From contig JAHFZE010000174.1 in assembly GCA_020854785.1 (NCBI GenBank), positions 1-27,023 on the forward strand: a DNA stretch of 27,023 bases, in the 5' to 3' direction. Of the stretch, positions 4,498 to 20,528 are shown one piece after another. Source of the stretch: Methanomethylovorans sp. Lineage in GTDB: Archaea; Halobacteriota; Methanosarcinia; Methanosarcinales; Methanosarcinaceae. The position numbers and the translations under genes are program-made. Position 1 is the stretch's first letter. Every line of letters starts with the position of its first letter. Under the pieces are notes generated by a model, which saw only the letters and a list, made by a program, of their open reading frames with translations, had not been told where the DNA came from and searched no databases.

Positions 4498-4640
4498 TAA
4501 GTCGTGAACTACCACCCTATGAATAGGGTGGCTTCCTACTTCATACTCCTGGCCATTGCCAGTAAGTCCATAGGCTCTTTCCGTAGTTCCTACGGTGTTA
4601 TATTCTGATTAGGTTTTGCTTATTAAGAGCAAACTTTTTG
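4498..4640 (-). ncRNA. Putative omegaRNA at the 3' end of tnpB
   Basis: TnpB guide RNAs come from the 3' end of tnpB and the right end of the element. Here the minus strand after the tnpB stop (4598) runs through about 65 bases to a strong hairpin (CCACCCTAT-TC-ATAGGGTGG, 4512-4531) and then GTAGTTCACGAC. If this follows known elements, the guide would be the bases just past the right end, near 4480-4500. The boundaries are inferred from family knowledge. Confidence 0.35.
4512..4531. repeat. Right-end hairpin of the IS1341-type element
   Basis: CCACCCTAT and ATAGGGTGG form a perfect nine-base stem with a two-base GA loop. On the minus strand it is preceded by AGTAGGAAG and followed by TAGTTCACGAC, a common layout for right ends of archaeal tnpB elements. 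Confidence 0.7.
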
Positions 4641-5710
4641 ATATTAATAGCGGCATTAATATCCCTGTCATGATTGGTTTTACAATCAGGACATTGCCAT
4701 TCTCTATCTGCAAGTGTTAAGTTCTTATTGTAATATCCACACACATTACAGATTTTAGTTGACGGTTCAAACCGTCCTATGCGTAAAATTGTTTTTCCAA
4801 ACCATTCTGCCTTATATTCCAGTTTGGTTACAAAAGAATTCCAAGAAGCATCTGCTATGTGTAATGCAAGGCAATGATTTTTCAACATACCGCTAACGTT
4901 CAAAGTTTCCAATGCTAACGCTTGATTCTCGCCTATCAGCTTAGAGGATAATTTATGTTGAAAATCATTTCTCTGGTTGCTTATTCTTTCATGAAGTTTG
5001 GATACTGCAGTTCTGGCCTTTGCCCTGTTCCTTGAACCTTTTTGCTTTCGACTCATCCTTCTTTGAAGGACATTAAGGCGTTGTATAGAGGTTTTAAGAT
5101 ATTTCGGATTATCTATTTTTTCACCATTGGAAAGTATAGCAAAGTCCTTGATTCCAATATCGATACCAACAGTTACCTTTTCATTGAACAGACTTTTAAC
5201 AGGTGTTTCCTGTTCATCATCTACAAGAATACTAATGTAGTATTTTCCAGTTGGCGTTCTGGATAATGTAGCGGTCTTTTCAATACCCTTAAATTTACGA
5301 TGTAGTTTTGTTTTTATCCATCCAATCTTAGGAAGCTTTACTTTATTTTTATCAAAATCCACTTCGTAGAATTGAGGTACTGAAAAAGATTGTACTGGAT
5401 TTTTCTTAGATTTAAAATTAGGGAATCCCTTTTTTTCTCTAAAAAACTTGGTAAACGCAGTTTCAAGACTAAGAGTAGCACCTTGTAATGATTGTGAATT
5501 TACATTCTTTAACCATGTATGTTCTTCCTTCAATTCAGTCATCATTTTATTCAAGGTGAATCTTGATACGGATTTACCATTTTGCTCATATGACTTGATT
5601 TTATTTTCTAAAGCCCAATTATAGACAAACCTACATGCACCGAAATGTTGGAAGAACGATTCTTCCTGCTCCTTTGCAGGATATATCCTATACTTATAGG
5701 CTTTTAACAT
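4598..5710 (-). CDS. tnpB: TnpB, RNA-guided nuclease of an IS1341-type element
   Basis: The protein has 370 residues from the ATG at 5708-5710, which gives the standard TnpB opening MLKAYKYRIYP. An ATG 24 bases upstream would add an unlikely extension. The RuvC-type catalytic residues are all present: Asp184 in VGIDIG, Glu268 in ALETLNV and Asp350 in HDRDINAAINI. The zinc finger Cys pairs CNVC and CPDC (321/324 and 340/343) are intact. The N-terminal part has the usual FGACRFVYNWAL motif. Length is normal. TnpB cuts DNA under guidance of an RNA made from its own 3' end, which helps keep the element at its site. No tnpA is present, so movement would need a transposase from elsewhere. A TATA box inside a nine-base inverted repeat lies about 28 bases upstream. 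Confidence 0.92.
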   Translation of the reverse strand: MLKAYKYRIYPAKEQEESFFQHFGACRFVYNWALENKIKSYEQNGKSVSRFTLNKMMTELKEEHTWLKNVNSQSLQGATLSLETAFTKFFREKKGFPNFKSKKNPVQSFSVPQFYEVDFDKNKVKLPKIGWIKTKLHRKFKGIEKTATLSRTPTGKYYISILVDDEQETPVKSLFNEKVTVGIDIGIKDFAILSNGEKIDNPKYLKTSIQRLNVLQRRMSRKQKGSRNRAKARTAVSKLHERISNQRNDFQHKLSSKLIGENQALALETLNVSGMLKNHCLALHIADASWNSFVTKLEYKAEWFGKTILRIGRFEPSTKICNVCGYYNKNLTLADREWQCPDCKTNHDRDINAAINIKKFALNKQNLIRI

Positions 5711-5727
5711 ACAAACAGTAAATTGTT

Positions 5728-5753
5728 TTAACACTATTTATAGTTAGTGTTAA
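5728..5753 (-). promoter_or_regulatory. tnpB promoter with inverted repeat around the TATA box
   Basis: TTAACACTA (5728-5736) and TAGTGTTAA (5745-5753) are perfect inverted repeats separated by eight bases. On the minus strand the spacer and inner arms form CTATAAATAG (5734-5743), a good TATA box about 28 bases before the tnpB ATG. The arrangement could be an operator or a subterminal hairpin of the element. Confidence 0.5.
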
Positions 5754-6484: not shown

Positions 6485-7081
6485 TTAATCCTCACGCTTA
6501 AAAGGGTCATACCTGAACCCGAAGCCCAGGTATCTCAGGGACAGGAAAGCCATGAGTACCACGAGAACGATGGAGAGCCCACCCACAATGGTCGTAAAGC
6601 CAGAGTACAGGATACCCAGTTCTGAAGGACCCGCGCTCAGCAGCGGGAAGAGGCTGAAAGGCTGGTTGTAAAGCGGATACAGGTACGTGATGATACCTCC
6701 GTCAATGTCGTCCAGGATCAGATGGAAGAGCGATGCAGCCGCTGCAAATACTCCCACGGCCAGGGCTTTGTTCCGCTGTCTGTACATCACCATGCCTGGA
6801 ACGACGCCGCCAATAAAGGCAATGCTGGCGAACAGTACTGAATGCGTGGGAACGGGCCCGAGAGTACAGTGATCGCCACGGGCCCCGTACAGGATCAGGT
6901 TGAAGACCGCCGATATATCCGGGAACAGCGAGAAAAAGCTGCCTATGGCCAGCAACGCCAGGAAATACCACCAGTCACTGCGCTGTAGCTTGCCCTGGCG
7001 GAAAGCCTTTGCAAAACCATACAGTGCTACCGGGAACAGCAGCAATACGAAGAATATCAGATGTCCAGGAGGATAGGGCAT
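6485..7081 (-). CDS. DUF457/YdjM-like membrane protein, paralog 1
   Basis: This 198-residue polytopic membrane protein is the most divergent of three tandem paralogs, all starting MPYP. Conserved spots are FPDISAVFNLILYG, GPVPTHSVLF and FHLILDDIDGG..TYLYPL. The THS and H..LDD..GG motifs with conserved His and Asp match the pattern of the DUF457/YdjM group of membrane-bound predicted metal-dependent hydrolases. It ends with a Y-L-G-F-G-F-R-Y-D stretch shared with its paralogs. A TATA box (7101-7112) lies about 25 bases upstream of the ATG and no Shine-Dalgarno sequence is seen, so the message is probably leaderless. The substrate of these proteins is unknown. A role at the cell envelope is inferred from the membrane segments and the neighbouring flippase. 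Confidence 0.75.
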   Translation of the reverse strand: MPYPPGHLIFFVLLLFPVALYGFAKAFRQGKLQRSDWWYFLALLAIGSFFSLFPDISAVFNLILYGARGDHCTLGPVPTHSVLFASIAFIGGVVPGMVMYRQRNKALAVGVFAAAASLFHLILDDIDGGIITYLYPLYNQPFSLFPLLSAGPSELGILYSGFTTIVGGLSIVLVVLMAFLSLRYLGFGFRYDPFKRED

Positions 7082-7100
7082 ATATCTATATATTGCTAAA

Positions 7101-7112
7101 ATATTTTATAAT
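7101..7112 (-). promoter_or_regulatory. TATA box of paralog 1
   Basis: The minus strand reads AATTATAAAATAT. Its centre is about 25 bases from the ATG at 7081, consistent with a leaderless message. Confidence 0.5.
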
Positions 7113-7196
7113 TCTATCGGTCAGTTCTATTCTAAACGAACAATATCCGCAAAAATGATCAAGTGTAGTCCACAGAACGATCACTTCTATTTTGTT

Positions 7197-7868
7197 CTAA
7201 GTGTCTGCTGCATGCCCCTCCTCTGAAGAATGGCCAGACGCTACAACAGATTTTCCATTATTCTTTTCTCCGTCAGCGCTCCTTGTTCCAAGAGGCTGGT
7301 ACTTATACCCAAAGCCCAGGTAGTTCAGGGACCATATTGTCATCAGCAGTACAGATGATATGAAAAGGACAGTGACCATGCCTGCAAGGTTATAGTACAT
7401 GAAATTAACCTCTGCAAGGTCAACGTCCACATAGGAGAACAGGTTCATCGCCCTGTTGTCCAGGGGATAGAAATACGTTATAGCACCACCGGCCACATCG
7501 TCCAGCAGCAGATGCGAAAGAGATGCAGCCCAGGCAAATACCCCCAGCGCCACAGCTTTACCCCGGTGCCTGTACAGCAGCTGGCCTAGAAGGGCTGCAC
7601 TGAAGAACGCAAGGCTGCAGAACATTAAGGAATGTGTAGGCACAGGACCGGCCATGGTGTGGGACAGGGTGCCATACAGCAAGTAGTTCCACACAGCCGG
7701 TATATCCGGAAGCAATGAGAAAAAACCGCCGAGCATAAGCAACAATATCAAATGCCACCAATCGGTCCAATGTACGCCCTCCGACCGCGCAGTATTCACA
7801 AAACCGTACAGTGCCGATGAAGATAAGCAGAACACGAAGAACATCAGATGCACTACTGGATATGGCAT
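7197..7868 (-). CDS. DUF457/YdjM-like membrane protein, paralog 2
   Basis: The 223-residue protein shares the whole layout of its neighbours: the MPYP start, LPDIPAVWNYLLYG, GPVPTHSLMF, SHLLLDDVAGG..TYFYPLDN, several hydrophobic helices and a LNYLGFGYKY end. It is clearly closest to paralog 3, with which it shares the second half almost motif for motif, including NFMYYNLAGMV. A hydrophilic tail of about 30 residues after the last helix is its own. The His and Asp residues expected of the DUF457/YdjM group are kept. A TATA-like ATTCTTAAAT (7891-7900) stands about 27 bases before the ATG. It has its own promoter, so the three copies are separate transcription units. Confidence 0.75.
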   Translation of the reverse strand: MPYPVVHLMFFVFCLSSSALYGFVNTARSEGVHWTDWWHLILLLMLGGFFSLLPDIPAVWNYLLYGTLSHTMAGPVPTHSLMFCSLAFFSAALLGQLLYRHRGKAVALGVFAWAASLSHLLLDDVAGGAITYFYPLDNRAMNLFSYVDVDLAEVNFMYYNLAGMVTVLFISSVLLMTIWSLNYLGFGYKYQPLGTRSADGEKNNGKSVVASGHSSEEGHAADT

Positions 7869-7890
7869 ACAGCATAAATTCTATCTGAAC

Positions 7891-7900
7891 ATTTAAGAAT
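7891..7900 (-). promoter_or_regulatory. TATA-like element of paralog 2
   Basis: The minus strand reads ATTCTTAAAT about 27 bases before the ATG at 7868. It is weaker than the matching elements of paralogs 1 and 3. Confidence 0.35.
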
Positions 7901-8000
7901 TTAATCTCACGACCCCCTGCAGGAAAAATGAATTGCATATCTTTACATTCTTTAGAGGATCCCGATAAACCTCTTTTTTGGTCGATCTATTCAATTTTTT

Positions 8001-8074
8001 ATCTACGCAAGGGCGCTAAGACGCAAAGAAGCCAATAACAACCCTTTACATCCTCGCGACCTTGCGTTCCAAAT
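8001..8074. repeat. Dispersed ACGCAAAG/CTTTGCGT repeat, copy D (partial)
   Basis: ATCTACGCAAGGGCGCTAAG, ACGCAAAGAAG, AATAACAACCC and CTCGCGACCTTGCGTTCCAAATG follow the order of the first half of the units at 2680-3095. The GTATGTACAC core and second half are missing. It sits alone between two DUF457-like paralogs, about 5 kb from the other copies. Confidence 0.65.
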
Positions 8075-8155
8075 GACATCTGAAAGGAATGAACAGGGAT
8101 CAAAAAACAACCGGGAGAATTCTAATTGATCAAAGAGGATCTAATGTGATATGCA

Positions 8156-8839
8156 TTAACTGATCTGTTCCACAGCATCTGCATCAGCTGTCTGGATCCC
8201 TCTTGAGGAGGAGCTGGATCTCAAACATGCCTTATCAAAACTCTTCCCGGTTTCATTTTGGTAAGAATGATACCTGAACCCAAAGCCCAGATAATGCAAT
8301 GACATCAGGGACATGAGCAGTACACAGAATATGAAGAACACAGAGACGATACCAGCCAGATTGTAGTACAGGAAGTTCACACCTGAGAATTCCACGTTCA
8401 CATAAGAGAACACGCTCATGGGCTCGTTGTGCAGCGGATAGAGATAGGTAAGGCCGCCCTCTGCAATATCGTCCAGGAGCAGATGGGAAAGAAAAGCCGT
8501 CTCTGCGAACATGCCCAGAGCCAGCGCCTTATCACGATGCCTGTAGACCAGCAGGCCTGCAATGAACGCTCCACAGAATGCTACGGTCCCGAATACCAGT
8601 GAATGAGTAGGTACCGGTCCGGCCATACAGTGATTAAGGTTGCCGTACAGGAAATAGTTCCATACTGCCGGTATATCCGGCAACAATGAACAAAATGCAC
8701 CTACCGACAGCAACACAAAGAAATGCCACCGATCCCTCCGGGAAACTTCGCCTCTGAGGAACGACTGCACGAATCCGTACAGCCCGGGCAGGAATATACA
8801 GAACACGAAGAACAATATGTGCACGATGGGATAAGGCAT
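8156..8839 (-). CDS. DUF457/YdjM-like membrane protein, paralog 3
   Basis: The start at 8837-8839 is chosen because it gives the MPYP beginning shared by the other two copies and because a strong TATA box (8861-8872) lies about 26 bases upstream. A longer frame to 8905 would run through that promoter. The 227-residue product has LPDIPAVWNYFLYG, GPVPTHSLVF, SHLLLDDIAEGG..TYLYPL, NFLYYNLAGIV and a LHYLGFGFRY end, with a polar tail of about 40 residues. The motif His and Asp residues of the DUF457/YdjM group are kept. Copies 2 and 3 are nearest relatives, which points to a recent duplication. The biochemical function is unknown. Confidence 0.75.
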   Translation of the reverse strand: MPYPIVHILFFVFCIFLPGLYGFVQSFLRGEVSRRDRWHFFVLLSVGAFCSLLPDIPAVWNYFLYGNLNHCMAGPVPTHSLVFGTVAFCGAFIAGLLVYRHRDKALALGMFAETAFLSHLLLDDIAEGGLTYLYPLHNEPMSVFSYVNVEFSGVNFLYYNLAGIVSVFFIFCVLLMSLMSLHYLGFGFRYHSYQNETGKSFDKACLRSSSSSRGIQTADADAVEQIS

Positions 8840-8860
8840 ATACCTTTGTATATAATCAAA

Positions 8861-8872
8861 TAATATATAATT
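8861..8872 (-). promoter_or_regulatory. TATA box of paralog 3
   Basis: The minus strand reads AATTATATATTATTTG, centred about 26 bases before the ATG at 8839. It supports both the internal start and a leaderless message. Confidence 0.5.
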
Positions 8873-9056
8873 ATGGATAACACGTTCAGAAATACCCGGG
8901 ACCATAAAATCAAAGCAAATCTATTTGTATGAACCATTCCAGAAAAAATGTAGATAGAATGAGCACCAGATGCTGGGAGCTCTTGTTGGTGTATGAACTT
9001 ATGAACATAACAGAACTACTGAAAGGTAGTAGAAATGATCAGGCAGGATTTAGATT

Positions 9057-10307
9057 ATGGTTCTGAAGGTTCACAATGCATCAAGACTAGTTCAGCATTT
9101 GCATGATCCTTTATTCAATAATTCCATATCCATCATGCTTACATCCTTCTTAAGTGCTGGTTTTGGATTTGTGTTCTGGGTGCTGGCTGCAAAGCTCTAT
9201 TCCGCCGAAGATGTGGGTACTGCAACTGCTATGATCTCTTCCATGGGATTTATCATAATGCTTTCCAGGTTAGGATTGGATGCCTCTATGATCAGATTCT
9301 TTCCTGACAATGATAAGAAGAGGATATTCAGCACTTCCCTCATTGTTGCAACATGCTGTGCATTACTATTCGGCACCATCTTTATCTTATCCGTGGATCT
9401 GCTGGCGCCTGAACTTTATTTACTAAAGTCTCCTGCCAATGCAGCTTTATATCTGATATTCCTTGCTGCGAACTCGGGAACCGCATTATCATGCATCTCT
9501 TTTGTGGCGGTCAGAAAAGCTTCCTTCCAGCTGGTCCAGAGCATAATAGTAAGCTCAAGAATACTGTTCCTGATCCCTCTTGTAGCACTTGGAGCAATGG
9601 GTATATTTTGCTCGCTGGGCATTTCATTGCTCATTGCGATCATAACTGCCTATGTCCTGCTTGCAGGATCGGGTGTAAGACCCGGGTTTGTAGCCGACTG
9701 GAAATTTTTGGATAAGGCTTTCCATTATGCTGCCGGAAATTATATAGCCGGTCTGTTCATGGCAGGGCCTGGCCTGATACTTCCTATCATGGTCCTGAAT
9801 ATGCTTGGCTCAAAGCAGGCGGCTTACTATTTTATCGCTTATGCGATCGCTACATTGCTTTTCAAAATACCCAATGCTGTCAGTACATCACTTTTCGTTG
9901 AAGGCAGCCATGGAGAAAGGATGAAGAAGAACGCAGCAAAGTCCTTATTGTTCACTTATTTGTTACTGATACCTGCTTCTGGCATAATGTACCTATGCAG
10001 CCATTGGATATTAGAAGCTATAAGTGCAGAGTATGCAGCAGAAGGGGTAATATTACTGCAGGTGATGATCGTTTCAGGTCTGTTCACGGGACTGAATTTT
10101 ACATATTTTGCTGTGCAGAGAGTACGTAAGGACATAAAGGAACTGATCGTTCTGAGCGGGTCCATGGCATTGGTGGTCGTTGGTGCAGCTTATGTACTTA
10201 TGCCCATATTCGGAATTGTAGGAGCGGGATATGCATGGCTTGCGGGAAATGTCACTGGCAATATGTTAGTTGCTCTAATGGTCTGGGTGAGGAATAGTAC
10301 TGATTGA
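9057..10307 (+). CDS. Polysaccharide/lipid-linked oligosaccharide flippase (Wzx-like)
   Basis: The 416-residue protein is almost entirely hydrophobic helices, about twelve by eye. It opens with a polar segment and then SIMLTSFLSAGFGFVFWVLA, followed by KLYSAEDVGTATAMIS, the typical start of the polysaccharide biosynthesis/export (Wzx, RfbX) family in the MOP superfamily. Members flip lipid-linked sugars across the membrane. It ends in AGYAWLAGNVTGNMLVALMV, again family-like. No Shine-Dalgarno sequence is obvious before the ATG. It converges on the archaeosortase gene with 11 bases between the stops. With the deacetylase and glycosyltransferase genes at 14-16 kb it suggests a surface glycan or glycoprotein pathway. 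Confidence 0.85.
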   Translation: MVLKVHNASRLVQHLHDPLFNNSISIMLTSFLSAGFGFVFWVLAAKLYSAEDVGTATAMISSMGFIIMLSRLGLDASMIRFFPDNDKKRIFSTSLIVATCCALLFGTIFILSVDLLAPELYLLKSPANAALYLIFLAANSGTALSCISFVAVRKASFQLVQSIIVSSRILFLIPLVALGAMGIFCSLGISLLIAIITAYVLLAGSGVRPGFVADWKFLDKAFHYAAGNYIAGLFMAGPGLILPIMVLNMLGSKQAAYYFIAYAIATLLFKIPNAVSTSLFVEGSHGERMKKNAAKSLLFTYLLLIPASGIMYLCSHWILEAISAEYAAEGVILLQVMIVSGLFTGLNFTYFAVQRVRKDIKELIVLSGSMALVVVGAAYVLMPIFGIVGAGYAWLAGNVTGNMLVALMVWVRNSTD

Positions 10308-10318
10308 AGTGAAAAACG

Positions 10319-11185
10319 TTACTTTTCAAGTACTTCTGCTTCATGGTCCATTACAATCTCTGATTTCACTCCTACCTTCAGATACACATAAATAAACACC
10401 ATGAACCATACAGGGAACAGGACATAACCTGCATAGTCATGCACCTTCCACATGGCAGCTGACCCGAAATGATAATTTGCAGCCACCAGGAGCAACAGCC
10501 GGAAGATGTTCTGCACTGATGTCCCCAGTATGCCGAAAAGGAACAATGGCAATATACGATCTTTCCTGGGTTTGGTATCTATCAGCATCAGGGCAAAGAC
10601 GGTAAGGAATATGGCAAGGGAAGCGCTCCCTGAACAGCCCGCATCAATGAACACACGACTGCTTAAACCAGCAGAATCGATCAAATCAAGCAACTGTCCC
10701 TCAGAAACTACAGGATATACCAGAGATGCAACGTATGCTACGATCTTTGTGGTGATAAGTGCATATTGTGTGCCAAAGGCCCCATCAAGGACCTTAGGGA
10801 AGGATACCGAAAAACCATAAACGAATACCAGCAGGGACGGCAGATAGACCGCAGCTCCGAAGAAGATCATGAACAGACCAGTGAACAGCAGGACGACATT
10901 GAACAACACAAGACCATGATCATCGGACAATGGCATGAGCAGGGCCATCACCGTTATTAACACGCCGGCTCCCACATAAGCAGGCTCGGCCAGCATTCCA
11001 TTTTTGTGCATCTGCCCGCAGATCACATCTTTCTTCAACCACCCGACTGCAATGCATAGCATGAGGATGACAAAAGGATGCGCTGTCCACTGCCTGGGAG
11101 CTGGGACCCCATCCCCCAGGAAAAAGAACCTGAGAACTGTAATTGCTATGGAGATAGCAAGCCATATCAAAACTTTGTTTTTCAT
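10319..11185 (-). CDS. Archaeosortase/exosortase family protein
   Basis: The 288-residue multi-pass membrane protein carries the three residues that define the archaeosortase/exosortase family. These are Cys184 in DAGCSGSASL, Arg229 in QNIFRLLLL and His249 in WKVHDYAGYVLF. These enzymes act in the membrane on proteins that end in a short motif, a hydrophobic helix and a basic tail, cutting there and probably joining the protein to a lipid. About eight hydrophobic helices are visible. It is the last gene of a minus-strand cluster of four. The cluster includes a small secreted protein with a sorting-signal-like end, so it may be a dedicated archaeosortase with a local substrate. The subfamily (ArtA, ArtC, ArtE and so on) cannot be decided by eye. 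Confidence 0.88.
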   Translation of the reverse strand: MKNKVLIWLAISIAITVLRFFFLGDGVPAPRQWTAHPFVILMLCIAVGWLKKDVICGQMHKNGMLAEPAYVGAGVLITVMALLMPLSDDHGLVLFNVVLLFTGLFMIFFGAAVYLPSLLVFVYGFSVSFPKVLDGAFGTQYALITTKIVAYVASLVYPVVSEGQLLDLIDSAGLSSRVFIDAGCSGSASLAIFLTVFALMLIDTKPRKDRILPLFLFGILGTSVQNIFRLLLLVAANYHFGSAAMWKVHDYAGYVLFPVWFMVFIYVYLKVGVKSEIVMDHEAEVLEK

Positions 11186-11206
11186 GCTATGGCAGATCCA
11201 TTATTG

Positions 11207-11665
11207 CTAGTTATTAAATACAAAACTTGCTTCTTCAAAGGGTTCAGACTGCTCATCCATATAGACAACAAAACGTGCAACACGCAAAGTCGAGTTAATG
11301 GTCTCGTTTTGGAATATAGAAATATCTTCAGGCACCACATCCCTTTGGTAGTGAAATGTTCTATTGGCTTCAACCGTAATATTATAACTATCTTTCAGTG
11401 TTTCACCATAAAATGTATCAATAGTATAATTGTGGCTTATAGTGTTATTATTAATAATCATCACGGATATTTTTGAATAATTACCAAGAAAGTAATCAAA
11501 CAAATCTATTCTGTTTATCTCAACTACTTGCTCCCCTGAATCTGTACTTAGTCCAGAAAATACACCCTGAGCAAAAAGTACAAGCAGAGCTCCTAATACT
11601 AAAAGAGATGAGATATAGAATACTCTTAATTTGTCCTTTAAAAACGATTTTGCTTTTGTTCCCAT
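11207..11665 (-). CDS. Membrane-anchored extracellular protein rich in N-glycosylation sequons
   Basis: The 152-residue protein has a basic N-terminus, one hydrophobic segment at about residues 14-34 and an extracellular beta-rich domain. The domain has seven N-X-S/T sequons (Asn62, 73, 79, 95, 101, 120 and 124), which is very dense. The pattern KISVMIINNN...YNITVEANRTFHYQ...RFVVYMDEQSEPFEE recalls the Ig-like soluble part of archaeal DUF1616 proteins, although the four-helix DUF1616 membrane part is absent. It lies 21 bases before the archaeosortase gene, so the two are probably cotranscribed. It has its own TATA box about 28 bases upstream of the ATG. Its role is unknown; a partner or accessory of the archaeosortase is an inference from position. 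Confidence 0.7.
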   Translation of the reverse strand: MGTKAKSFLKDKLRVFYISSLLVLGALLVLFAQGVFSGLSTDSGEQVVEINRIDLFDYFLGNYSKISVMIINNNTISHNYTIDTFYGETLKDSYNITVEANRTFHYQRDVVPEDISIFQNETINSTLRVARFVVYMDEQSEPFEEASFVFNN

Positions 11666-11686
11666 ATTATTATCACAGAACCATAG

Positions 11687-11699
11687 TTTTTAAATAAAG
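11687..11699 (-). promoter_or_regulatory. TATA box inside the archaeosortase cluster
   Basis: The minus strand reads CTTTATTTAAAAA about 28 bases before the ATG at 11665. It would let the last two genes of the cluster be transcribed independently of the substrate candidate. Confidence 0.45.
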
Positions 11700-11760
11700 G
11701 CATAAATAACACTCACTCTACTGTCCTCTATACTAGAAAAAGCGAACTCTACTATATAAC

Positions 11761-11780
11761 AGGCTCTTTTAATAGAGCCT
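11761..11780 (-). terminator. Stem-loop after the archaeosortase substrate candidate
   Basis: AGGCTCT (11761-11767) and AGAGCCT (11774-11780) form a perfect seven-base stem with a six-base A/T loop. It overlaps the stop codon of the gene at 11779. It may end or stabilise the substrate message, separating it from the archaeosortase, which has its own promoter upstream. Confidence 0.45.
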
Positions 11781-12306
11781 AATTGTTCTTACGCATCATA
11801 AAATATACACCTGCTATAGCCAGTATTATGAATGATGCAAAAGAAAACTCAATTCCGCAACACACAGGAAAGAATATGTCTTCAGAAGAACCAGTTTGTT
11901 TAATGTTAACTCTCCAGTCACCATCGACGCATGGATGTAGAATAGGAACAGTAAAACAATCTTCATAGTAAGAAGATCCATCATATTTACCTTCAATAGT
12001 ATGGGTTTGCGCCGGATTATTAGCTCCAGGAGCGAACCACTTGAACGTCAATTCGTGCCTACCCATACCATCTATTCCTACAAAATTGATAGGAGTGCAG
12101 GAAGGTTTCTCATATGTAGCATCTATTACCCTCATGCATATTATGTCACCTGGGGAAACGCATTGTAAGCTATTCTGTGAAACCCAGTTACCATTATTCA
12201 CCTTAAAAAGAACACTATAACCAGTAAGACAACCTGTGTCTGCAGCTACAACTGACAATGAAACAACAACCACAACTAACAACAAAGCATACTTAAAAAG
12301 CTTCAT
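11779..12306 (-). CDS. Secreted Cys-rich protein, candidate archaeosortase substrate
   Basis: The 175-residue protein has a clear signal peptide (basic MKLFK, a run of hydrophobic residues, then AADTG near residue 22). The compact ectodomain has eight cysteines (26, 49, 57, 70, 117, 126, 149, 150). It ends with GIEFSFASFIILAIAGVYFM and then MRKNN. A short motif (IEF, compare PEF in PEF-CTERM proteins), one hydrophobic helix of about 16 residues and a basic tail at the very end is the layout of an archaeosortase sorting signal. It starts one base after the stop of the gene at 12308, so the two are translationally coupled, and the archaeosortase gene lies two genes further on. A stem-loop follows directly. 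The protein could instead be an ordinary C-terminally anchored protein. Confidence 0.7.
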   Translation of the reverse strand: MKLFKYALLLVVVVVSLSVVAADTGCLTGYSVLFKVNNGNWVSQNSLQCVSPGDIICMRVIDATYEKPSCTPINFVGIDGMGRHELTFKWFAPGANNPAQTHTIEGKYDGSSYYEDCFTVPILHPCVDGDWRVNIKQTGSSEDIFFPVCCGIEFSFASFIILAIAGVYFMMRKNN

Positions 12307-12307
12307 T

Positions 12308-13018
12308 TCATCCCACCTTTCCTATGATCAAAGCTACTTGAGTGAACACCATACCGACGAATATAATGAACAGCACTCCTGACAGCCGGCTGAACCTTAT
12401 CCTCAGGTTACCTATGAACTTGAAAGACCTCTCAGACAGAGCTGGTTCCGTAAGTTCAAGATATATCAACAATCCTATCAGGACTATCGAGAAGATCACG
12501 CTTACATTGAGAGCTGAACTGTCGCCGAACGCCTGGTCATAGTAGGCCATGGTGGTCATGTAGCTCATCACTGACGTTGAGAAGGTTGCAAAGCTCACAA
12601 AACTGCTCCAGACCTGCGGTGGGTATGCAGGCAGTGAAACATATTCCTCATGTTCGGACCCATCGATGGTGGATCTTACTACAAAGGTGATCTGTTCCCC
12701 CATCTTCAGTGGGTTCTCGTATGTATACTGGTACTTTTTGGTCGATAGGGGGGACAGCTGCGTCGCACCTTCCATTACAAGGTTCCCGTTGGCATATAGC
12801 TGATAATCTCCCGAAGCGGACTGAACAGATGGGTTATTGAGATTGAATGTAACTAGAAGAGGCTCGCCCTCCATGGGCACCTGAGGGAAAACAGAGACGG
12901 AAACCGGCGCAGATGCGTCATGCAAACCTACGACCAGGCTCGCCATTAATAGAACAGCGAACCAGATAACCATGATCTTTAAAACATACCTATTATTTGA
13001 AGAAATAGTACCACCCAC
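12308..13018 (-). CDS. Membrane protein with extracellular Ig-like (CARDB-like) domain
   Basis: The 236-residue protein starts at GTG with AGGTGG directly upstream. It has a hydrophobic signal-anchor at about residues 13-32, then a beta-rich extracellular domain (PVSVSVFPQVPMEGEPLLVT, LNNPS, LYANGNLVMEG, LSTKKYQYTYE). That domain reads like a CARDB or similar Ig-like fold. Two further membrane helices near residues 170-190 and 213-233 flank a basic loop (RSFKFIGNLRIRFSR). It is the first gene of the cluster leading to the archaeosortase and is coupled to the substrate candidate. It may help present or export that protein, but no known family with a defined function was recognised. Confidence 0.65.
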   Translation of the reverse strand: MGGTISSNNRYVLKIMVIWFAVLLMASLVVGLHDASAPVSVSVFPQVPMEGEPLLVTFNLNNPSVQSASGDYQLYANGNLVMEGATQLSPLSTKKYQYTYENPLKMGEQITFVVRSTIDGSEHEEYVSLPAYPPQVWSSFVSFATFSTSVMSYMTTMAYYDQAFGDSSALNVSVIFSIVLIGLLIYLELTEPALSERSFKFIGNLRIRFSRLSGVLFIIFVGMVFTQVALIIGKVG

Positions 13019-13425: not shown

Positions 13426-14226
13426 GTGAAACTGAAAAAACTTGCATTCAATAGGATACAAGCCACTTTGTTCATATCAGTCATTTTTCTGGCGATCATA
13501 ATTGCAGAATATATCTTCACTTATCGTGATGCCGGATATGGCATCGTCTTATGTCTTTTTATCACGATCGCCATATATGTGATCATCTCTGTGGTCGATA
13601 TGCAAAAAAGTTTCATAAATGCTGCAGAATCCTTAGCTATCATTCCCCTCTATGTTCTTTTTACATCATCGCTCCCCTGGTTCTTTATTGACCAGCGTTT
13701 TCTCCTTCCGGCGATATACTCGATAATATTGGCTCTGTGCTTCTGGCACATGCACGAAAAGGACCTCGAATTTCACGATGTGGGGCTTAAAAGCAACAAT
13801 CTGTTAAAGTATGCCATGATAGGTATATTGATAGGGATGTTCACCGGTCCCATAGAATACTGGGTACTTAAACCTGCACCTTCGTTCCCCACGTTCGAAC
13901 TGAAATACCTGCTTAGGGATATCGTATACATGACCTTTTTTGTCGGCCTGGGAGAAGAGCTTTTGTTCAGAGGCTTGATCCAGAACGACCTCAGTAAAAC
14001 ATTTGGTACAAAGACAGGGATCTTTGGACAGGCGTTACTGTTCGCAGTGATGCACATGACATGGCGATCACCCCTGGAACTGGCGTTCACCTTTTTTGCA
14101 GGGATACTGTTCGGTATCTTATATCACAGGACCGGCAGTCTCACCGCACCCATCGCATTCCATGGAATGAACAACACAATGCTGGTCTCGATCCTTCCAT
14201 ACTACTTCGCCGGGTTGCTCATCTGA
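13426..14226 (+). CDS. CPBP-family intramembrane metalloprotease (CAAX protease/Abi family)
   Basis: The 266-residue membrane protein has about eight hydrophobic helices and all four motifs of the CPBP family. These are EELLFRG (Glu177, Glu178, Arg182), F206..H210 in LFAVMHMTW, and H246...N250 in IAFHGMNNTM. These residues bind the metal in intramembrane glutamic-type/metal-dependent proteases related to Rce1. Family members process prenylated or membrane proteins. In archaea their substrates are mostly unknown. It is the first gene of a three-gene operon with a deacetylase (starting one base after this stop) and a glycosyltransferase, so a part in cell-surface assembly is plausible. The GTG start is the only one fitting the TATA box and the start of the hydrophobic region. 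Confidence 0.85.
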   Translation: MKLKKLAFNRIQATLFISVIFLAIIIAEYIFTYRDAGYGIVLCLFITIAIYVIISVVDMQKSFINAAESLAIIPLYVLFTSSLPWFFIDQRFLLPAIYSIILALCFWHMHEKDLEFHDVGLKSNNLLKYAMIGILIGMFTGPIEYWVLKPAPSFPTFELKYLLRDIVYMTFFVGLGEELLFRGLIQNDLSKTFGTKTGIFGQALLFAVMHMTWRSPLELAFTFFAGILFGILYHRTGSLTAPIAFHGMNNTMLVSILPYYFAGLLI

Positions 14227-14227
14227 C

Positions 14228-15064
14228 ATGACACGAACTAAAGTTTGCATCAGGATAGATATTGACACGGTAAGGGACACACAGGTCCTTCCGGTCCTGC
14301 TGGGAATACTTGACCAGTTCGATGTCCCTGCAACATTCTTTGTTACAACAGGACCCGATATGACCTTCAGGAACTATAGGAATTATCGTAACCCACTCAA
14401 ACTGCTGCAGAAAAAAGCTATTCAGCAACATGGACTGAGACAAATGTTCAGGGGCATGGTGTACGAACAGCAGGTCCAGGGATCGGAAAATCTGCAATTG
14501 ATCGTGGAAAAGGGTCATGAACTTGGACTACATGGCTATTCCCACTATGAATGGATGAACACGCTCCCGAAAAAAAGCAAAGAAGAGATAAAGGCATGGA
14601 TATCCAAAGGCTGTACACTTTTTGAGGATGCATGCGGTTTTGGACCAAGGTCATTTGCATCCCCTGGTTTTGCAACAAGTAACGAGTTCCTGGAAGCGTT
14701 GGATACGTTCAGGTTCGATTATTCCAGCGATTTCAGAGGCACTGAAGCATTCTACCCGGAACACGGCTCCTACAGGTCCTCAACATTGCAGCTGCCAGTA
14801 TGCGAAAGGTCTTTTGGTGAACTGGGGTCCGAGGGTCATTCTCAGGAAGAGATATATCATATTATCAAGAACGGCCTTGACACAGCCCGGCAATTCTTCG
14901 TGTTCTACATGCACCCATCCTATGAGCCGATACTGAACAGGGACCTTTTAATAAAGGTGCTGGGATACATCATATCCTCTGACGGTCTGGAGATCATTAC
15001 AATGCATCAGCTCGCAAAGCACATAAAAAGAAGGGGTCTGCCTGAAAATCCTGCAAATATATGA
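14228..15064 (+). CDS. ArnD-like polysaccharide deacetylase (carbohydrate esterase 4 fold)
   Basis: The 278-residue protein opens with VCIRIDIDT (Asp11, Asp13). It then has VPATFFVTTGPDM, GHELGLHGYSHYEW (His102, His106) and a later SFASPGFATS, which are the motif positions of the NodB/CE4 polysaccharide deacetylase fold. The RIDIDT start and the overall spacing are closest to ArnD, which removes a formyl group from a lipid-linked amino sugar. Removal of an acyl or formyl group from a lipid-linked sugar is therefore a reasonable guess. There is no signal peptide, so it acts in the cytosol or at the inner membrane face. It starts one base after the CPBP stop, and its last codons overlap the glycosyltransferase start, so all three are coupled. 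Confidence 0.83.
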   Translation: MTRTKVCIRIDIDTVRDTQVLPVLLGILDQFDVPATFFVTTGPDMTFRNYRNYRNPLKLLQKKAIQQHGLRQMFRGMVYEQQVQGSENLQLIVEKGHELGLHGYSHYEWMNTLPKKSKEEIKAWISKGCTLFEDACGFGPRSFASPGFATSNEFLEALDTFRFDYSSDFRGTEAFYPEHGSYRSSTLQLPVCERSFGELGSEGHSQEEIYHIIKNGLDTARQFFVFYMHPSYEPILNRDLLIKVLGYIISSDGLEIITMHQLAKHIKRRGLPENPANI

Positions 15065-16235
15065 ACTGGCACCCCATGACAATGCAACATCCGGTGGTAT
15101 AGAAGTTGCGATACTGGAAACATCCAGAGAGCTGGTTGCCCGTGGTCATGAAGTAACTGTGCTTACAGGTGCAAAGGACACACCCAAAGAGGAGATCATA
15201 GATGGTGTGAGGATCATTAGCATTGATTTCTGCAGAATTATGGAACATACCTGGAACCCTTCAAGCCTGACCCTGAAAAGACAGATATTGTTCCCGGTCG
15301 CAGTACTCTTTAACCTGCCCGGGACCTTTGATATTTACCATGGACATATATACTCTTCCGGATTGATAGCAAACTATCTTGCAAGACGATCTGGTGGTGT
15401 TGCCGTCAATACCATCCATGGTTCCTATTACCCAATATGGGATAGGCTTACCAATCCCATTGCTTCCCAATGCTACAGAACAGCAGAACATATACTGGCA
15501 CCGGCACTTGCGAGATTATCCGATGTACAGTTGCACACCGGAGATTACTTTGCGCAACAGGTCATCATCTGGGGCGCCCCAGCATATAAGATAAGGACCA
15601 TACACAACGGTGCCGACCTTACCAGGTTCGATCCACTCATACCCCGTGCAATGGTCCCCCATATATCCATTGACCCTGCGCTTCCAGTGATACTCACAGC
15701 CCGCCGGCTTGTCAGGAAGAACGGTATCCATCATCTGATAAGAGCAATGAGAATAGTATGCAATGAGGAAAAATGCCAGTTGGTCATCATAGGCGAAGGT
15801 GAAGAACGTGCGTCTCTGGAAAGATTGACACGTGAATTGCATGTCCAGGACCACGTGCATTTCCTGGGGATGATACCTCACGAACAGCTTCCGCCATATC
15901 TGGCCCTTGCTGACATAGCGGTGGTCCCAAGCCTTGTCGAAGCGTCCAGCATATTCATGCTTGAAGCAATGGCAATGGCAAAACCTGTCATAGCTACCAA
16001 TGCAGGTGGTCTCCCGGAGATCCTTTCCCCTTCTGCAGGCATACTTGTAGAACCTATGGATGAGGTAGGACTGGCGGATGCGATACTGGAACTCTTACGG
16101 AACAAAGAAAAACGGCTGCAACTTGGAGAACAGGCATATGCTCATGTGAAGAAGAACTACTCCTGGAAAGCGATCGCCCAGCAAATGGAATCCGAGTACA
16201 TGAGATTATTGGCAGAGAAGAAGAGGCGCAAGTAG
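15042..16235 (+). CDS. Glycosyltransferase family 4 (GT-B fold), apparent CTG start
   Basis: The protein has a GT4 C-terminal domain with ARRLVRKNGIHHLIRA, LVIIGEGEE, VHFLGMIP and the EX7E motif in EASSIFMLEAMAMAKPVIAT. GT4 enzymes transfer a sugar from a nucleotide sugar, usually to a lipid-linked chain. The first ATG, GTG or TTG in frame (GTG 15159) would cut off the N-terminal strand and Gly-rich loop. The open frame upstream reads KILQIYELAPHDNATSGGIE then VAILETSRELVARGHEV, exactly the expected N-terminus. A CTG at 15042, five bases after AAGGGGT, is the best start, giving 397 residues. The upstream frame closes at TAA 15024-15026 and holds no ATG. The gene overlaps the end of the deacetylase gene by 23 bases. 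CTG initiation is rare, so a sequence error at this codon is also possible. Confidence 0.85.
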   Translation: MKILQIYELAPHDNATSGGIEVAILETSRELVARGHEVTVLTGAKDTPKEEIIDGVRIISIDFCRIMEHTWNPSSLTLKRQILFPVAVLFNLPGTFDIYHGHIYSSGLIANYLARRSGGVAVNTIHGSYYPIWDRLTNPIASQCYRTAEHILAPALARLSDVQLHTGDYFAQQVIIWGAPAYKIRTIHNGADLTRFDPLIPRAMVPHISIDPALPVILTARRLVRKNGIHHLIRAMRIVCNEEKCQLVIIGEGEERASLERLTRELHVQDHVHFLGMIPHEQLPPYLALADIAVVPSLVEASSIFMLEAMAMAKPVIATNAGGLPEILSPSAGILVEPMDEVGLADAILELLRNKEKRLQLGEQAYAHVKKNYSWKAIAQQMESEYMRLLAEKKRRK

Positions 16236-16347: not shown

Positions 16348-17307
16348 TTAAAATCCTAACCAGTTCAGGATCTTCCATATATAGTCCATAATGCTGTTGG
16401 TCTTGACCACAGACTGTTCGTTAGCACCCTCTGCACTTATTACATCTGCATTGGTCTCAGGCATTGATTGAAGCACCGTTGCATTCTCAGAGGACACATT
16501 CTCAAGGCTCAGTATCTTGGCCTCGCCTGTACCGCCACTCCTGACTATCGTATCCTCGATGATCTCATTCCCACCGGAATTATCATCCAGAACCTCTTGC
16601 TTGTCTTTGCTGCAATCCTTTAAGGTCACCACCCTTGTCTTATCTCCGACCTTAAGGATATATTCACCTGCCGGTCTCTCCGTGCAGCAGACCTGCTTGA
16701 AATGGCCTGTCTCGTCAGCCTTGACATCTAATGTCGCCACAAATGTGAGCTTTACATTCTTCACGTGACCCGGATCCTTATCGGTTTCCGTACCATCATC
16801 GCAGTTGGTCACAGCACCTGCACCGGCAGCATTACCGCTCACCACCAGGTTATAATTACCCTGTGGAACGCGTGATGACACACTGGCCTTATGAGCAGAA
16901 GATGCTTTAAAGGTCTTTGACAGGTCCAATACACCAAATACATTTGAGGATACCTTAAGGTCCTTTACGCCCTCTGCGGTGATACTGGCTGTTGTGCCCG
17001 GAGGTATCGGTACTTTATCTTGCTTATATTCGAATTTGCCCTCCGAGACAGGTACCTCCACAACGTAGGTGGTAGTAATGGTCACATAATCGCCGGGACC
17101 CACCATACCTTCAATGATGATAGGACCACTGTTTACACATAGGTCTTCACCGGGAAGTATCTTCAGGTCTTCCACCGGCCATGCCAGAGCACTGGTTGCT
17201 GAAAACAGGATCATCAACATTACACTGGCCGATATAATGGCAGCGCCGCCAAGCAATTTACAGCCTGAACTAGACTTGCCAAGTACGCGTAAAAATCGAA
17301 TATTCAA
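16348..17307 (-). CDS. Secreted or surface protein with N-terminal signal, unknown family
   Basis: The TTG at 17305-17307 is taken as start because GGAGGT stands six bases before it. An ATG 30 bases further up would lie above the likely transcription start. The 319-residue product has a signal segment GAAIISASVMLMILFSATSALAWP and then a beta-rich part (IIIEGMVGPGDYVTITTTYV, VPQGNYNLVVSG, PAGEYILKVGDKTRVVTLKD) that looks like two or three Ig-like modules. It has a few paired cysteines. The tail (residues 250-319) is acidic and low in complexity and ends in a short amphipathic stretch IMDYIWKILNWLGF. No family was recognised. It stands alone, convergent with the glycosyltransferase operon. The promoter contains a palindrome that could be an operator. 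Confidence 0.7.
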   Translation of the reverse strand: MNIRFLRVLGKSSSGCKLLGGAAIISASVMLMILFSATSALAWPVEDLKILPGEDLCVNSGPIIIEGMVGPGDYVTITTTYVVEVPVSEGKFEYKQDKVPIPPGTTASITAEGVKDLKVSSNVFGVLDLSKTFKASSAHKASVSSRVPQGNYNLVVSGNAAGAGAVTNCDDGTETDKDPGHVKNVKLTFVATLDVKADETGHFKQVCCTERPAGEYILKVGDKTRVVTLKDCSKDKQEVLDDNSGGNEIIEDTIVRSGGTGEAKILSLENVSSENATVLQSMPETNADVISAEGANEQSVVKTNSIMDYIWKILNWLGF

Positions 17308-17313
17308 ACAACG

Positions 17314-17319
17314 ACCTCC
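17314..17319 (-). promoter_or_regulatory. Shine-Dalgarno site deciding the TTG start
   Basis: The minus strand reads GGAGGT six bases before the TTG at 17307. It lies inside the longer open frame, which argues against the ATG at 17337. Confidence 0.65.
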
Positions 17320-17331
17320 TACTCTTCTAGA

Positions 17332-17362
17332 GTACACTTACAAGTGTACATATAATGTATAA
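17332..17362 (-). promoter_or_regulatory. Promoter with palindromic operator candidate
   Basis: GTACACTT (17332-17339) and AAGTGTAC (17342-17349) form a perfect inverted repeat with a two-base spacer. Directly upstream on the minus strand is a TATA-like TTATACATTATA (17351-17362). The palindrome thus covers the space between the TATA box and the expected transcription start near 17332, the usual place for an archaeal repressor site. Confidence 0.5.
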
Positions 17363-18486: not shown

Positions 18487-19278
18487 ATGGATTATTTTTC
18501 AGGTATATCCGATGCATTAAGGGTCACATTTGTACAAATGATGATACTCTCTATTATTGCAATTGGTATATTTATTGTAGGAATGTACATCAACTTTAAG
18601 AAATGGAGCATGGGTTCCACTGGATATGGTCAGGCACCATCGAAAAGCATCTGGGCGTTCCCTAAGATGCTCATGTACCAGATGAGCCAGCATGCACATG
18701 TCCACAATCAATCGGTTCTTGAAACTATCGTCCTTGACATTCTTTTTCAGAGAAGGATCCTTAGAAGAAGTAAGATCAGATGGTTCATGCACATCACGAT
18801 CTTCATAGGCTGGATGACCCTTTTTGCTATGTCCGGCGCCATGTTCTTTGTTGAAATGACACACATGATCGGTGAAAGGATAGGATTCGCTGAAACACTT
18901 CCCTGGTTCATGAGCCCTGAGGTTTTCAGAGAACTGCTCGCAGTGCCCAATGATGTATTCAGTTACATACTGCTCATAGGTGTCGTGATCGCAATATACA
19001 GGAGACTGTTCGTTGCAAAGGCCAGAGAATCCACTATTGCATACGACTCCATCCTTATCATCGGACTTGCCGTGATCACAATTTCAGGTTTCATTGCCGA
19101 CGGTATAAGGACCGGCAGGTTCTGGGGATTTGGCATAGACTACGCATATGCACCACCTGCAGCACTGTTCCATGTGGTCATCTCCCTGCTGTTCTGTATC
19201 GCATACATACCCTTCAGTAAGTATATACATATATTAGCCATCCCTTTTACACTGCTCGCAAATAAGGGAGGAGAATAA
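18487..19278 (+). CDS. hdrE: CoB-CoM heterodisulfide reductase cytochrome b subunit HdrE
   Basis: The 263-residue protein has five hydrophobic helices. They include [20 protein letters not shown] near the start, [20 protein letters not shown] in the middle and [18 protein letters not shown] near the end. His residues in the helices could hold the b-type hemes. This is the cytochrome b (NarI-like) subunit of the membrane-bound heterodisulfide reductase. It passes electrons from methanophenazine to HdrD for reduction of the CoM-S-S-CoB disulfide, an energy-conserving step in Methanosarcinales. The start has an AGGAGA site nine bases upstream. hdrD begins two bases after the stop. Length is normal for HdrE. 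The gene identity is secured by its neighbour. Confidence 0.93.
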
Positions 19279-19280
19279 AA

Positions 19281-20528
19281 ATGGTAAAAAGACAGCCTTC
19301 CATAACAACTGAGAACTTTACAGCAGTGCAGCTCATGGAACTGGATGCCTGCAGCAGATGTGGAGAATGTGTCAACTGGTGTCCTACCTATGATGCTTCC
19401 GGTCAGAACCCCGGACTTGCACCCAGGGACAAGATCCTCAGGTGGGCCGAGTTCATGAAGAAGTCCTACGGACTGCGTGCCAGGCTTTTCGGTCCAAAGC
19501 AGATCCCATTGGAAGAGCTTGAACAGTTCAAGAACGATGTATACGGATGTACCACCTGTGGCATGTGTGCCACAGTATGCGAATCTGCCATAAATACCGT
19601 GGAACTCTGGGAATCCATGCGAGCAAACCTTGTTAAGAGCGGTATCGGTCCCTTTGGCAAGCAAGGCATGTTCCTGAAGCTTATTGGGGAATACAAGAAC
19701 CCATACATGGCAGACAATAAGGACAGGATCAACTGGTTCCCTGCTGACATCAAGGTAGAGGAACAGGCTGAAGTCCTGTATTTCGGCGGATGTACTGCAG
19801 AACTGAGACAGAGAAAGCTCGCCCTTGCAACAGCCCGCGTCCTTAACAAGCTCGGCATAAAGTTCACTATGCTGGGAGAGGACGAGATCTGCTGCGGTTC
19901 AGCTCTTATAAGGACCGGACAGTACTTTATCAACGATACTGCAAAGATAAATGCGCAGAAGAACGTGGACAATATCAAAGCAAAGGGTGCAAAGATAGTT
20001 CTCTATGCGTGTGCAGGATGTTACAGGGCTTCTCTCATTGACTGGCCCCGCCTGACAGGCAAAGAGCTCCCGTTCAAGGTAGTACACGTAACAGAGTTCC
20101 TTCAGGACCTCATAAAGAAAGGAGAGATCAAGTGGGAGAAGTCCATCGACAAAAAGGTCACTTACCATGACCCATGTCACCTTGGCCGCCACGTAGGCGT
20201 CTTCGAGCCGCCCAGAGCCGTTCTTGAGGCCATCCCTGGCATTCAGTTCATAGAGATGGAAAGAATTAAAGAGAACCAGCGCTGCTGTGGAGCAGGAGGC
20301 GGTGTAAAAGCCGGTATTCCGGACCTTGCACTGGGAGTTGCTTCCACCCGTGTGGAAGATGCACTTGCGACCAGCGCTGATATCCTGTCCAGCGCCTGTC
20401 CGTTCTGTAAGAGAAACCTCAGTGACGGCAGGGATGCCATTGGTGCAAAGGAACTCGAAGTAGAAGATGTGATAGTCCTTGTGGCAGAAGCTATGGGGAT
20501 CGACCTGAGCGACACTCCTGCAGAGTGA
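19281..20528 (+). CDS. hdrD: CoB-CoM heterodisulfide reductase catalytic subunit HdrD
   Basis: The 415-residue protein has two ferredoxin-type 4Fe-4S motifs (C24, 27, 30, 34 in [12 protein letters not shown] and C90, 93, 96, 100 in [11 protein letters not shown]). Two complete CCG domains follow: C171, C204-C205, C244, C247, and C299, C335-C336, C373, C376. The CCG domains bind the noncubane 4Fe-4S clusters that reduce the mixed disulfide CoM-S-S-CoB, releasing CoM-SH and CoB-SH. HdrD faces the cytoplasm and receives electrons from HdrE. A GGAGGAG ribosome binding site overlaps the end of hdrE, two bases before this gene, so the two are cotranslated. All cluster ligands are present and the length is that of the family. 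Two DUF116 genes follow on the same strand after a short T-tract. Confidence 0.96.

Follow-up and report, generated by a model that had tools for sequence, protein, structure and literature searches.

A candidate dedicated archaeosortase module with a rapidly diversifying substrate in Methanomethylovorans, and its relatives in other archaea and Chloroflexota

In this study, we analysed a 27,023-nucleotide stretch of a Methanomethylovorans sp. genome (assembly GCA_020854785.1, contig JAHFZE010000174.1, positions 1 to 27,023; hereafter the window, from the 2.06-Mb genome G000), in which four genes on the reverse strand are arranged around an archaeosortase. In operon order they are ACC1 (12308..13018), SUB (11779..12306), ACC2 (11207..11665), and ART (10319..11185), working names coined in this analysis, with gaps of 1, 113, and 21 bases between them. 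According to alignments and a structure model, ACC1 has a transmembrane helix, an immunoglobulin (Ig)-like domain, an SSFVSFA stretch, and two C-terminal helices. SUB, the presumed substrate, has a signal-like N-terminus, a Cys-rich beta domain (8 Cys in 175 residues), and a tripartite tail consisting of IEF, a hydrophobic helix, and a basic end (RKNN, in the terminal MRKNN), which a leave-one-out tail model recognizes with an E-value of 4e-6. ACC2 combines an N-terminal transmembrane helix with an Ig-like ectodomain. ART scores 81.5 bits against PF09721 (cut-off 25.7) and 50.6 bits against TIGR04178 (cut-off 23), and its catalytic columns hold C184, R229, and H249. A first-pass annotation of this DNA had described these four reading frames, an archaeosortase with complete Cys, Arg, and His, and a Cys-rich secreted protein ending in IEF, a helix, and MRKNN; all four frames were found, all on the reverse strand, and both descriptions hold. 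We propose that the genes form a sorting module in which a dedicated archaeosortase puts a single, rapidly diversifying protein on display, with a probability of roughly 0.7, on the basis of gene content, conservation, co-occurrence, tail similarity, intact active sites, and natural gene fusions.

The conserved unit is larger than these four genes. A CPBP (Rce1-like) intramembrane protease is encoded divergently from ACC1 (13426..14226, forward strand; PF02517, 80.3 bits, cut-off 22.4), followed on the same strand by a polysaccharide deacetylase (14228..15064; PF01522, 47.4 bits) and a GT4 glycosyltransferase (15159..16235; PF00534, 135 bits). A flippase-like polysaccharide exporter (9057..10307, forward strand; PF01943, 31.2 bits, cut-off 28.2) marks the left edge of the block and occupies the same place in the congener G005. 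The self-contained cluster first marked at 10319..13018 therefore needs redrawing: its four genes are real, and ACC1 and ACC2 are conserved with ART and SUB, but it omits the conserved members at 13426-16235 and the flippase at 9057-10307, the CPBP gene belongs to the core, and glycan genes flank the unit in archaea. The order ACC1-SUB-ACC2-ART beside a divergent CPBP gene is kept in the cluster-bearing congeners G003 and G005, in another genus of Methanosarcinaceae (G032), and in another family (G077 and G115), while three Chloroflexota loci (L052, L054, and L062) have the same module, complete but rearranged. The recurrence of these genes together in other genomes, which the first-pass annotation had named as a check, indicates that the cluster in the window is more than a chance assembly.

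Scanning named genome contigs with an ACC1 profile yielded 29 loci, from Methanosarcinaceae, Methanoperedenaceae, Argoarchaeum, Methanophagales, and Chloroflexota, together with one contig labelled Peptococcaceae (L053, from G240) and two labelled Bacteroidales. After removal of four duplicates (L042, L044, and L058, which repeat G032, G003, and G094, and L046, a near copy of L045) and addition of the window and six other stretches, 32 loci were counted; L059 and L068 entered as separate loci although both are contigs of a single assembly, and so did L062 and L069. Local profiles run on the open reading frames of these loci found ACC2 in 24, ART in 23 (including a 63-residue piece in L053 and an N-terminally broken gene in L022), CPBP in 22, a PEF-type tail in 22, GT4 in 12, and the deacetylase in 11. 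Several loci lie on cut-short contigs, and many of the missing genes, though not all, reflect contig ends. CPBP is present in 21 of the 23 ART loci and thus belongs to the core. The two Bacteroidales-binned contigs, L045 and L046, bear an archaeal-type cluster with flippase, GT4, and deacetylase and are likely mis-binned; L045 was classed as archaeal-type from its neighbour genes.

Co-occurrence was also counted by genome. Of the 237 genomes analysed from the window's class, 13 carry ACC1 (E ≤ 4.3e-15) and 15 carry ART (E ≤ 1e-12), and 13 of 13 ACC1 genomes have ART; the further ART genomes are G139 and G153 (a 145-codon frame covering the C-terminal half of a truncated gene). This count includes a 46-codon ACC1 piece at a contig end in G136 and excludes a G059 match (E 2e-4, inside an 877-residue frame) taken as spurious. 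In the class of G237, the Chloroflexi-titled source of L054, ACC1 occurs in 9 of 393 genomes, all of which are among the 10 with strong ART matches (E < 1e-40), and two more genomes have weak ART matches; eight of these nine were already among the scanned loci, so that the two counts overlap. Fisher p-values for the association, uncorrected for kinship, are 1.2e-19 and 1.8e-17 for the 237 and 393 genomes, respectively. Within the window's genus, three of six genomes carry the cluster (G000, G003, and G005) and three do not (G001, G002, and G004). Three ACC1 proteins (P0012, P0018, and P0030) lie on contigs of uncultured Methanomethylovorans sp. that are each 2,933,275 bases long, which suggests that the module may be present more than once in some genomes.

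SUB is the variable part of the module. Taking identity as identical residues over the shorter length, the means for Methanosarcinaceae, taken over five loci or, for ART and GT4, over four, are 75% for ACC1, 74% for CPBP, 67% for GT4, 62% for ACC2, and 58% for ART, compared with 21% for SUB. The machinery is 53-67% identical among four Methanoperedenaceae loci, against 30% for SUB, and 35-57% among the four bacterial loci compared, namely L053 and three from Chloroflexota (ART from one pair), against 18%. Substrate lengths range from 150 to 1169 residues (the contig-cut L067 excluded), and the archaeal substrates have a weakly similar domain ahead of the tail. A search of approximately 5.8 billion proteins with the window SUB, with 27 candidates scored, returned only the query itself; the search requires shared five-residue words, so distant relatives would escape it. 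The structure model of SUB (mean predicted local distance difference test score, pLDDT, 65, a low confidence) has a beta sandwich, with a helix at the C-terminus, and Foldseek with this low-confidence model found nothing at E ≤ 0.001. The Cys richness given earlier as a feature is true of the window SUB (4.6%); among 23 substrates only that of L043, the cluster on contig C38 of G158, is similar (3.8%, 11 Cys in 288), and the others have at most 1.7%.

A conserved machine with a highly variable passenger for which no relative was found could also be a recognition or conflict system in which SUB is a strain-specific surface marker, a role that has been suggested for the VARTIG modules of Thermococcales. 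The Ig-like or beta-sandwich parts of the proteins and the patchy presence of the block, gained or lost as a unit, fit this idea, and VARTIG modules likewise combine a hypervariable Ig-containing surface protein bearing a C-terminal motif with linked membrane proteins (PMC8416519, cited from an excerpt). However, the VARTIG genes are different, and in that excerpt the authors report no sorting enzyme found in those loci. Seven proteins scanned with PADLOC gave no match, so that a defence reading is not supported; Pfam and NCBIfam matches among the cluster proteins scanned include no toxin or immunity family; and fast divergence is expected of surface proteins generally. We therefore regard a recognition role as unlikely.

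In contrast to the body of the substrate, its tail is recognizable across the 23 substrates: the motif reads PEF in 19, PEL in 2, PEV in 1, and IEF in the window. The most direct sequence evidence that enzyme and tail type may work together comes from natural fusions. In the Chloroflexi-titled locus L052, the ART frame continues past a hydrophobic stretch into a secreted-type domain, giving a 670-residue protein (P0122) that ends in AAIPEFSTV, a helix, and MRRRQ, and a model built without that tail recognizes it with an E-value of 9e-15. SUB is one gene away from ART in the window and fused to it in L052. A search with the fusion gave four matches at E ≤ 1e-10, including itself: P0123 (678 residues) is 57% identical to the L052 protein over its length, P0125 (617 residues, the N-terminus probably cut) has the same build and tail, and P0124, from Chloroflexota, is shorter and has a decayed tail.

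These fusions join the tail to ART and not to CPBP, which bears on the idea that CPBP is the tail-sorting protease, as in myxosortase, and the archaeosortase is secondary. CPBP is approximately as common as ART in the loci, its active-site columns E, E, R, H, H, N (EExxxR, H, HxxxN) are intact in 22 of 22 proteins, and myxosortase is itself a sorting enzyme of the same CPBP family (PMC11980579, consulted in part). In addition, one or two Cys lie at most six residues before the E-F motif in 3 of 23 tails, those of the window (CCG-IEF; 11845-11900), L022, and L043, all from Methanosarcinaceae; the other 20 lack this feature. No Cys is common to the 23 tails, in contrast to the invariant Cys of MYXO-CTERM, and the window CPBP scores 56 bits against a cut-off of 100 with the myxosortase models (NF040914 and relatives), no CPBP sorting model reaching its cut-off. 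Such a division of labour appears improbable. The exosortase E/protease model TIGR04162 joins an exosortase with a CPBP-type protease, judging by its name and a C-terminal CPBP match; in the cluster the two are separate genes.

The cluster enzymes retain the archaeosortase active site. Cys and Arg are present in 21 of 21 complete enzymes (two pieces in L022 excluded), and the third position is occupied by His in 16 enzymes and by Glu in five, all five from Methanoperedenaceae (L023, L025, L047, L048, and L068). In Haloferax ArtA, the third critical residue is Arg253 (PMC9263693, from the portion available), which, set against His or Glu in the cluster enzymes, suggests that the third position is not fixed across the superfamily. 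ArtA with its PGF-CTERM targets shares the superfamily and possibly the lipid transfer chemistry, but it belongs to another clade and uses another tail, and G000 encodes a separate ArtA. Assignment of ART to ArtC was rejected: it scores 35.4 bits against TIGR03762 (cut-off 100), where six reference ArtC proteins score 213-446. The cluster enzymes of 23 genomes score 26-49 bits with this model, and a protein of G033 is intermediate at 64 bits. In a phylogenetic tree, which omits the G033 protein, the six ArtC sequences form their own clade (100/99) with the cluster ART outside; a single clade of cluster enzymes against ArtC is not supported either way. The enzymes of Argoarchaeum and Methanophagales group with four from Chloroflexota (98/93), suggesting that the cluster ART may have moved, in one direction or the other, between archaea and bacteria.

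The same data bear on the possibility that ART is a diverged ArtC with a housekeeping role, acting on all PEF-CTERM proteins, SUB being one of many targets. The resemblance is genuine: both systems have a PF09721 enzyme with catalytic Cys and Arg and a PEF-type tail with a helix and a basic end, ArtC is the best-matching archaeosortase subfamily model for ART although below its cut-off, and G158 has further PEF-type tails with the cluster enzyme alone. On the other hand, the scores of the cluster enzymes fall far from the ArtC cut-off, the substrate is local and accompanied by conserved helpers, and the PEF-CTERM model TIGR03024 (cut-off 23) misses the tails of G000, G003, and G005, the window SUB going unmatched even at E ≤ 1. 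At E ≤ 0.01 this model has no hit in G000, G001, G003, G004, or G005; it matches in 52 of 119 relatives and matches three proteins in G002, a congener that has neither the cluster enzyme nor a curated ArtC. G115, G142, and G094 encode a curated ArtC elsewhere in the genome in addition to the cluster ART, and none was found in G000, G003, or G005. Together with the enzyme-substrate fusions, these observations make a general housekeeping role quite unlikely. PEF-CTERM and archaeosortases A and C are described as absent from the ANME-1 genomes examined in PMC5244752 (as excerpted); a Methanophagales contig, L060, carries two tails, of which one is PEF and the other PEL, and an enzyme that is not ArtC. 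Among 19 genomes counted, PF09721 genes number three in G000, two each in G005 and G032, and one each in G158 and G237-G240. The three of G000 are the cluster ART, ArtA, and a small ArtE/ArtF-like gene below those cut-offs. A pattern scan of genome contigs for archaeosortases matched 70 stretches, none of which was confirmed.

Whether one enzyme serves one protein was assessed in ten genomes with a held-out tail model, A6, built from 16 tails, all from outside Methanosarcinaceae (the counts in loci above used leave-one-out models). The earlier claim of a single substrate is consistent with the matches in G000, G003, and G005, where the local SUB is the best match and has no credible second, and does not carry over to G158 and G032. 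In G000 the local SUB is the one match at E ≤ 1; in G005 it scores 1.3e-4, followed by 0.026 in a 79-codon frame with a stop; in G003 it scores 4.3e-6, followed by 0.25. G237 and G239 have one match each, and G238 and G240 have one strong match and weak others. The bacterial cluster tails are part of A6, so that only the lack of further tails is informative for G237-G240. In Methanophagales G241 there are 12 matches with the cluster tail far ahead.

Several observations weigh against a dedicated module. The window tail reads IEF and is matched only at E 0.128 by A6, and G000 is only 76.5% complete. In G032, a PEF-CTERM protein (1.0e-4, also found by TIGR03024) outscores the local SUB (2.3e-3). 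G158 has nine further matches from 2.1e-5 to 2.2e-3 besides its local substrate (7.5e-6), and in this 94% complete genome no PF09721 enzyme was found besides that of the cluster, so that the enzyme there may serve several proteins. Of the nine, three were inspected; two have canonical PEF tails and one a non-PEF tail. Locus L059 has a tailed substrate beside ACC1 but lacks ART, even with approximately 9 kb of flank on each side, L057 and L063 carry ACC1 with no detectable tail despite long flanks, and G238 and G249 have ART and ACC1 on separate contigs. A strict one-substrate rule for all bearers was rejected on the tail matches in G158 and G032. Many proteins with the same signal, which the first-pass annotation would have counted against a dedicated system, were not seen in G000, G003, or G005 and may be present in G158; its other condition concerned relatives of the substrate in genomes without the enzyme, and here the search with the SUB body yielded no homolog, and PEF-type tails occur in G002 where the cluster enzyme is missing. 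Judged from these tail matches, dedication is probable in the window's genus, consistent with the data in bacteria, and doubtful in G158. Alternatively, another sorting enzyme may be missing from the G158 assembly. L065 and L067 have tail-like ends below the reach of the tail model.

We propose a pathway for the dedicated module in which ACC1, SUB, ACC2, and ART would be made together. SUB would be exported through its N-terminal signal and kept in the membrane by its C-terminal hydrophobic helix. C184 of ART, with R229 and usually a His, would attack at or near the [I/P]-E-F motif and remove the helix, and the mature SUB would be transferred onto an anchor at the presumed cell surface. By analogy with ArtA (PMC9263693, as far as the excerpt goes), a lipid is the probable anchor; in the archaeal versions the anchor could alternatively be a lipid-linked glycan, given the neighbouring genes. 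ACC1 and ACC2 may present SUB to ART or hold the anchor donor, and CPBP, as a second intramembrane protease, may clear the left-over tail peptide or mature a partner; for all three we infer these roles from their conservation.

The ACC1 profile matched 939 proteins at E ≤ 1e-5 among 7996 candidates scored, and none of the 120 relatives listed has a Pfam domain; the window ACC1 itself has no Pfam or NCBIfam match at 0.01 and no sequence relative in the PDB at E ≤ 0.1. Its structure model (mean pLDDT 71) contains a transmembrane helix, an Ig-like sandwich at residues 39-128 (block pLDDT 69-93), the conserved SSFVSFA stretch at low confidence, and two further long helices. The Foldseek matches are of a generic Ig-like kind, headed by TRAP components of the Sec61 translocon (target TM-score 0.36-0.40) and including CARDB domains (0.56-0.58), and no function was read from them. 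Window ACC2 has no Pfam match at 0.01, but its ectodomain aligns with the C-terminal domain of eight DUF1616-like proteins (hhalign probability 92, E 6.6e-7), and a Chloroflexota ACC2 reaches 13.3 bits against DUF1616 (PF07760, cut-off 31.6) in its C-terminal part only. DUF1616-like genes also lie near several archaeal clusters.

A broader proposal would be that ART, CPBP, ACC1, and ACC2 make up one sorting complex for a single hypervariable substrate, a display system with a constant machine and a variable passenger that spread horizontally among methane-cycling archaea and Chloroflexota. We hold this at slightly below even odds. If it is true, no helper subunit of an archaeosortase would have been known before ACC1 and ACC2; the reported partners of ArtA processing, PssA and PssD, are lipid-synthesis enzymes. 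A compact system of this kind would single out candidate helpers (ACC1, ACC2, and CPBP) that are hidden where targets are scattered, and the natural fusions offer a ready construct for testing cleavage and anchoring. For Methanoperedenaceae, Methanosarcinaceae, and Chloroflexota, the module would further place many quickly changing surface proteins in one shared genomic setting, which bears on the question of which surfaces these environmentally important organisms present to phages and partners.

One-enzyme, one-target systems as such had already been defined in PMC3237569, which proposed them for finding missing components; this corrects the first-pass suggestion of an undescribed dedicated sorting system. 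Most sorting enzymes have few targets or one, often adjacent (PMC8416519), and MrtJ with JDVT-CTERM is a two-gene dedicated case (PMC11980579); all three papers are cited from the parts consulted. The cluster shares the pairing of one enzyme with one nearby target with the dedicated sortase, exosortase, and rhombosortase pairs of PMC3237569, but it adds two helpers and an unrelated second intramembrane protease and is found in archaea and Chloroflexota. In the open-licence literature consulted, whose scope leaves out most subscription papers, we found no description of an ACC1/ACC2/CPBP module and no paper on exosortases with Dehalococcoidia, or with Chloroflexi and CAAX.

The flanking glycan genes raise the possibility that ART, CPBP, and the helpers serve exopolysaccharide export or attachment, the tailed protein being a structural part of the coat. 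In archaea, the flippase, deacetylase, and GT4 genes flank the module (the deacetylase and GT4 each in 11 of 17 archaeal-type loci), and exosortases were first tied to exopolysaccharide production through PEP-CTERM (PMC11980579, same excerpt). However, none of the 15 bacterial-labelled loci has the deacetylase and only L065 has a GT4 gene, a distant match, while several of them keep ACC1, ACC2, CPBP, ART, and substrate. A primary role in glycan export thus appears rather unlikely, and a dedicated sorting module remains our preferred reading.

The block behaves as a discrete island in the window's genus, since it is present or absent at the same site among congeners. In G005, the flippase-to-GT4 block lies at the site of the window, with YdjM-family genes on one side and on the other a sulfite-reductase-like gene, which is followed by genes matching 18487-20528 of the window. 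We take 18487-20528 to be hdrED, a name that the Pfam matches fit but do not by themselves establish. The block is absent in G002, where the YdjM-family genes directly adjoin the 18487-20528 counterparts; in G001 the two groups of genes are separated only by a small protein and a remote homolog of the 16348 gene; G004 has other genes at the site and no block; and G003 has the cluster on another contig and the site without the block. The gene at 16348-17337 encodes a secreted-type protein of no known family, present once in the window; its relatives flank the island on both sides in G005 (L020:5994-6980 and 15023-15979; 59% and 61% identical) and also occur at the site in G003 and G001.

Within the operon, a perfect 7-bp hairpin lies at the SUB stop codon (11761-11780) in the only long gap; it has no T-run on the coding strand and is thus no obvious terminator. 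Scans for promoters (10 against 9.4 expected) and terminators (4 against 2.2, standard deviation 1.6) gave numbers at and near chance, respectively. On contig C216 of G000 (L030:1673-3769), a 164-residue ArtE/ArtF-like archaeosortase is flanked by a 128-residue secreted-type protein with a helix-KR tail and by a glycosyltransferase, presumably GT2-like, and may form a second dedicated pair. In L059 (8968-12691), ACC1 and the tailed substrate adjoin a gene that groups with ArtA, there being no cluster ART in 18.7 kb; another neighbour is presumably a phosphatidylserine-decarboxylase relative. To the left of the island, three tandem YdjM-like membrane proteins are encoded at 6485-8905, one of them just below the Pfam cut-off, and relatives are found at the site in G001, G002, G003, and G005. 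Farther out, an IS605-family OrfB/TnpB-type protein is encoded at 4598-5734, and G005 has a relative, split over two frames, on the corresponding side.

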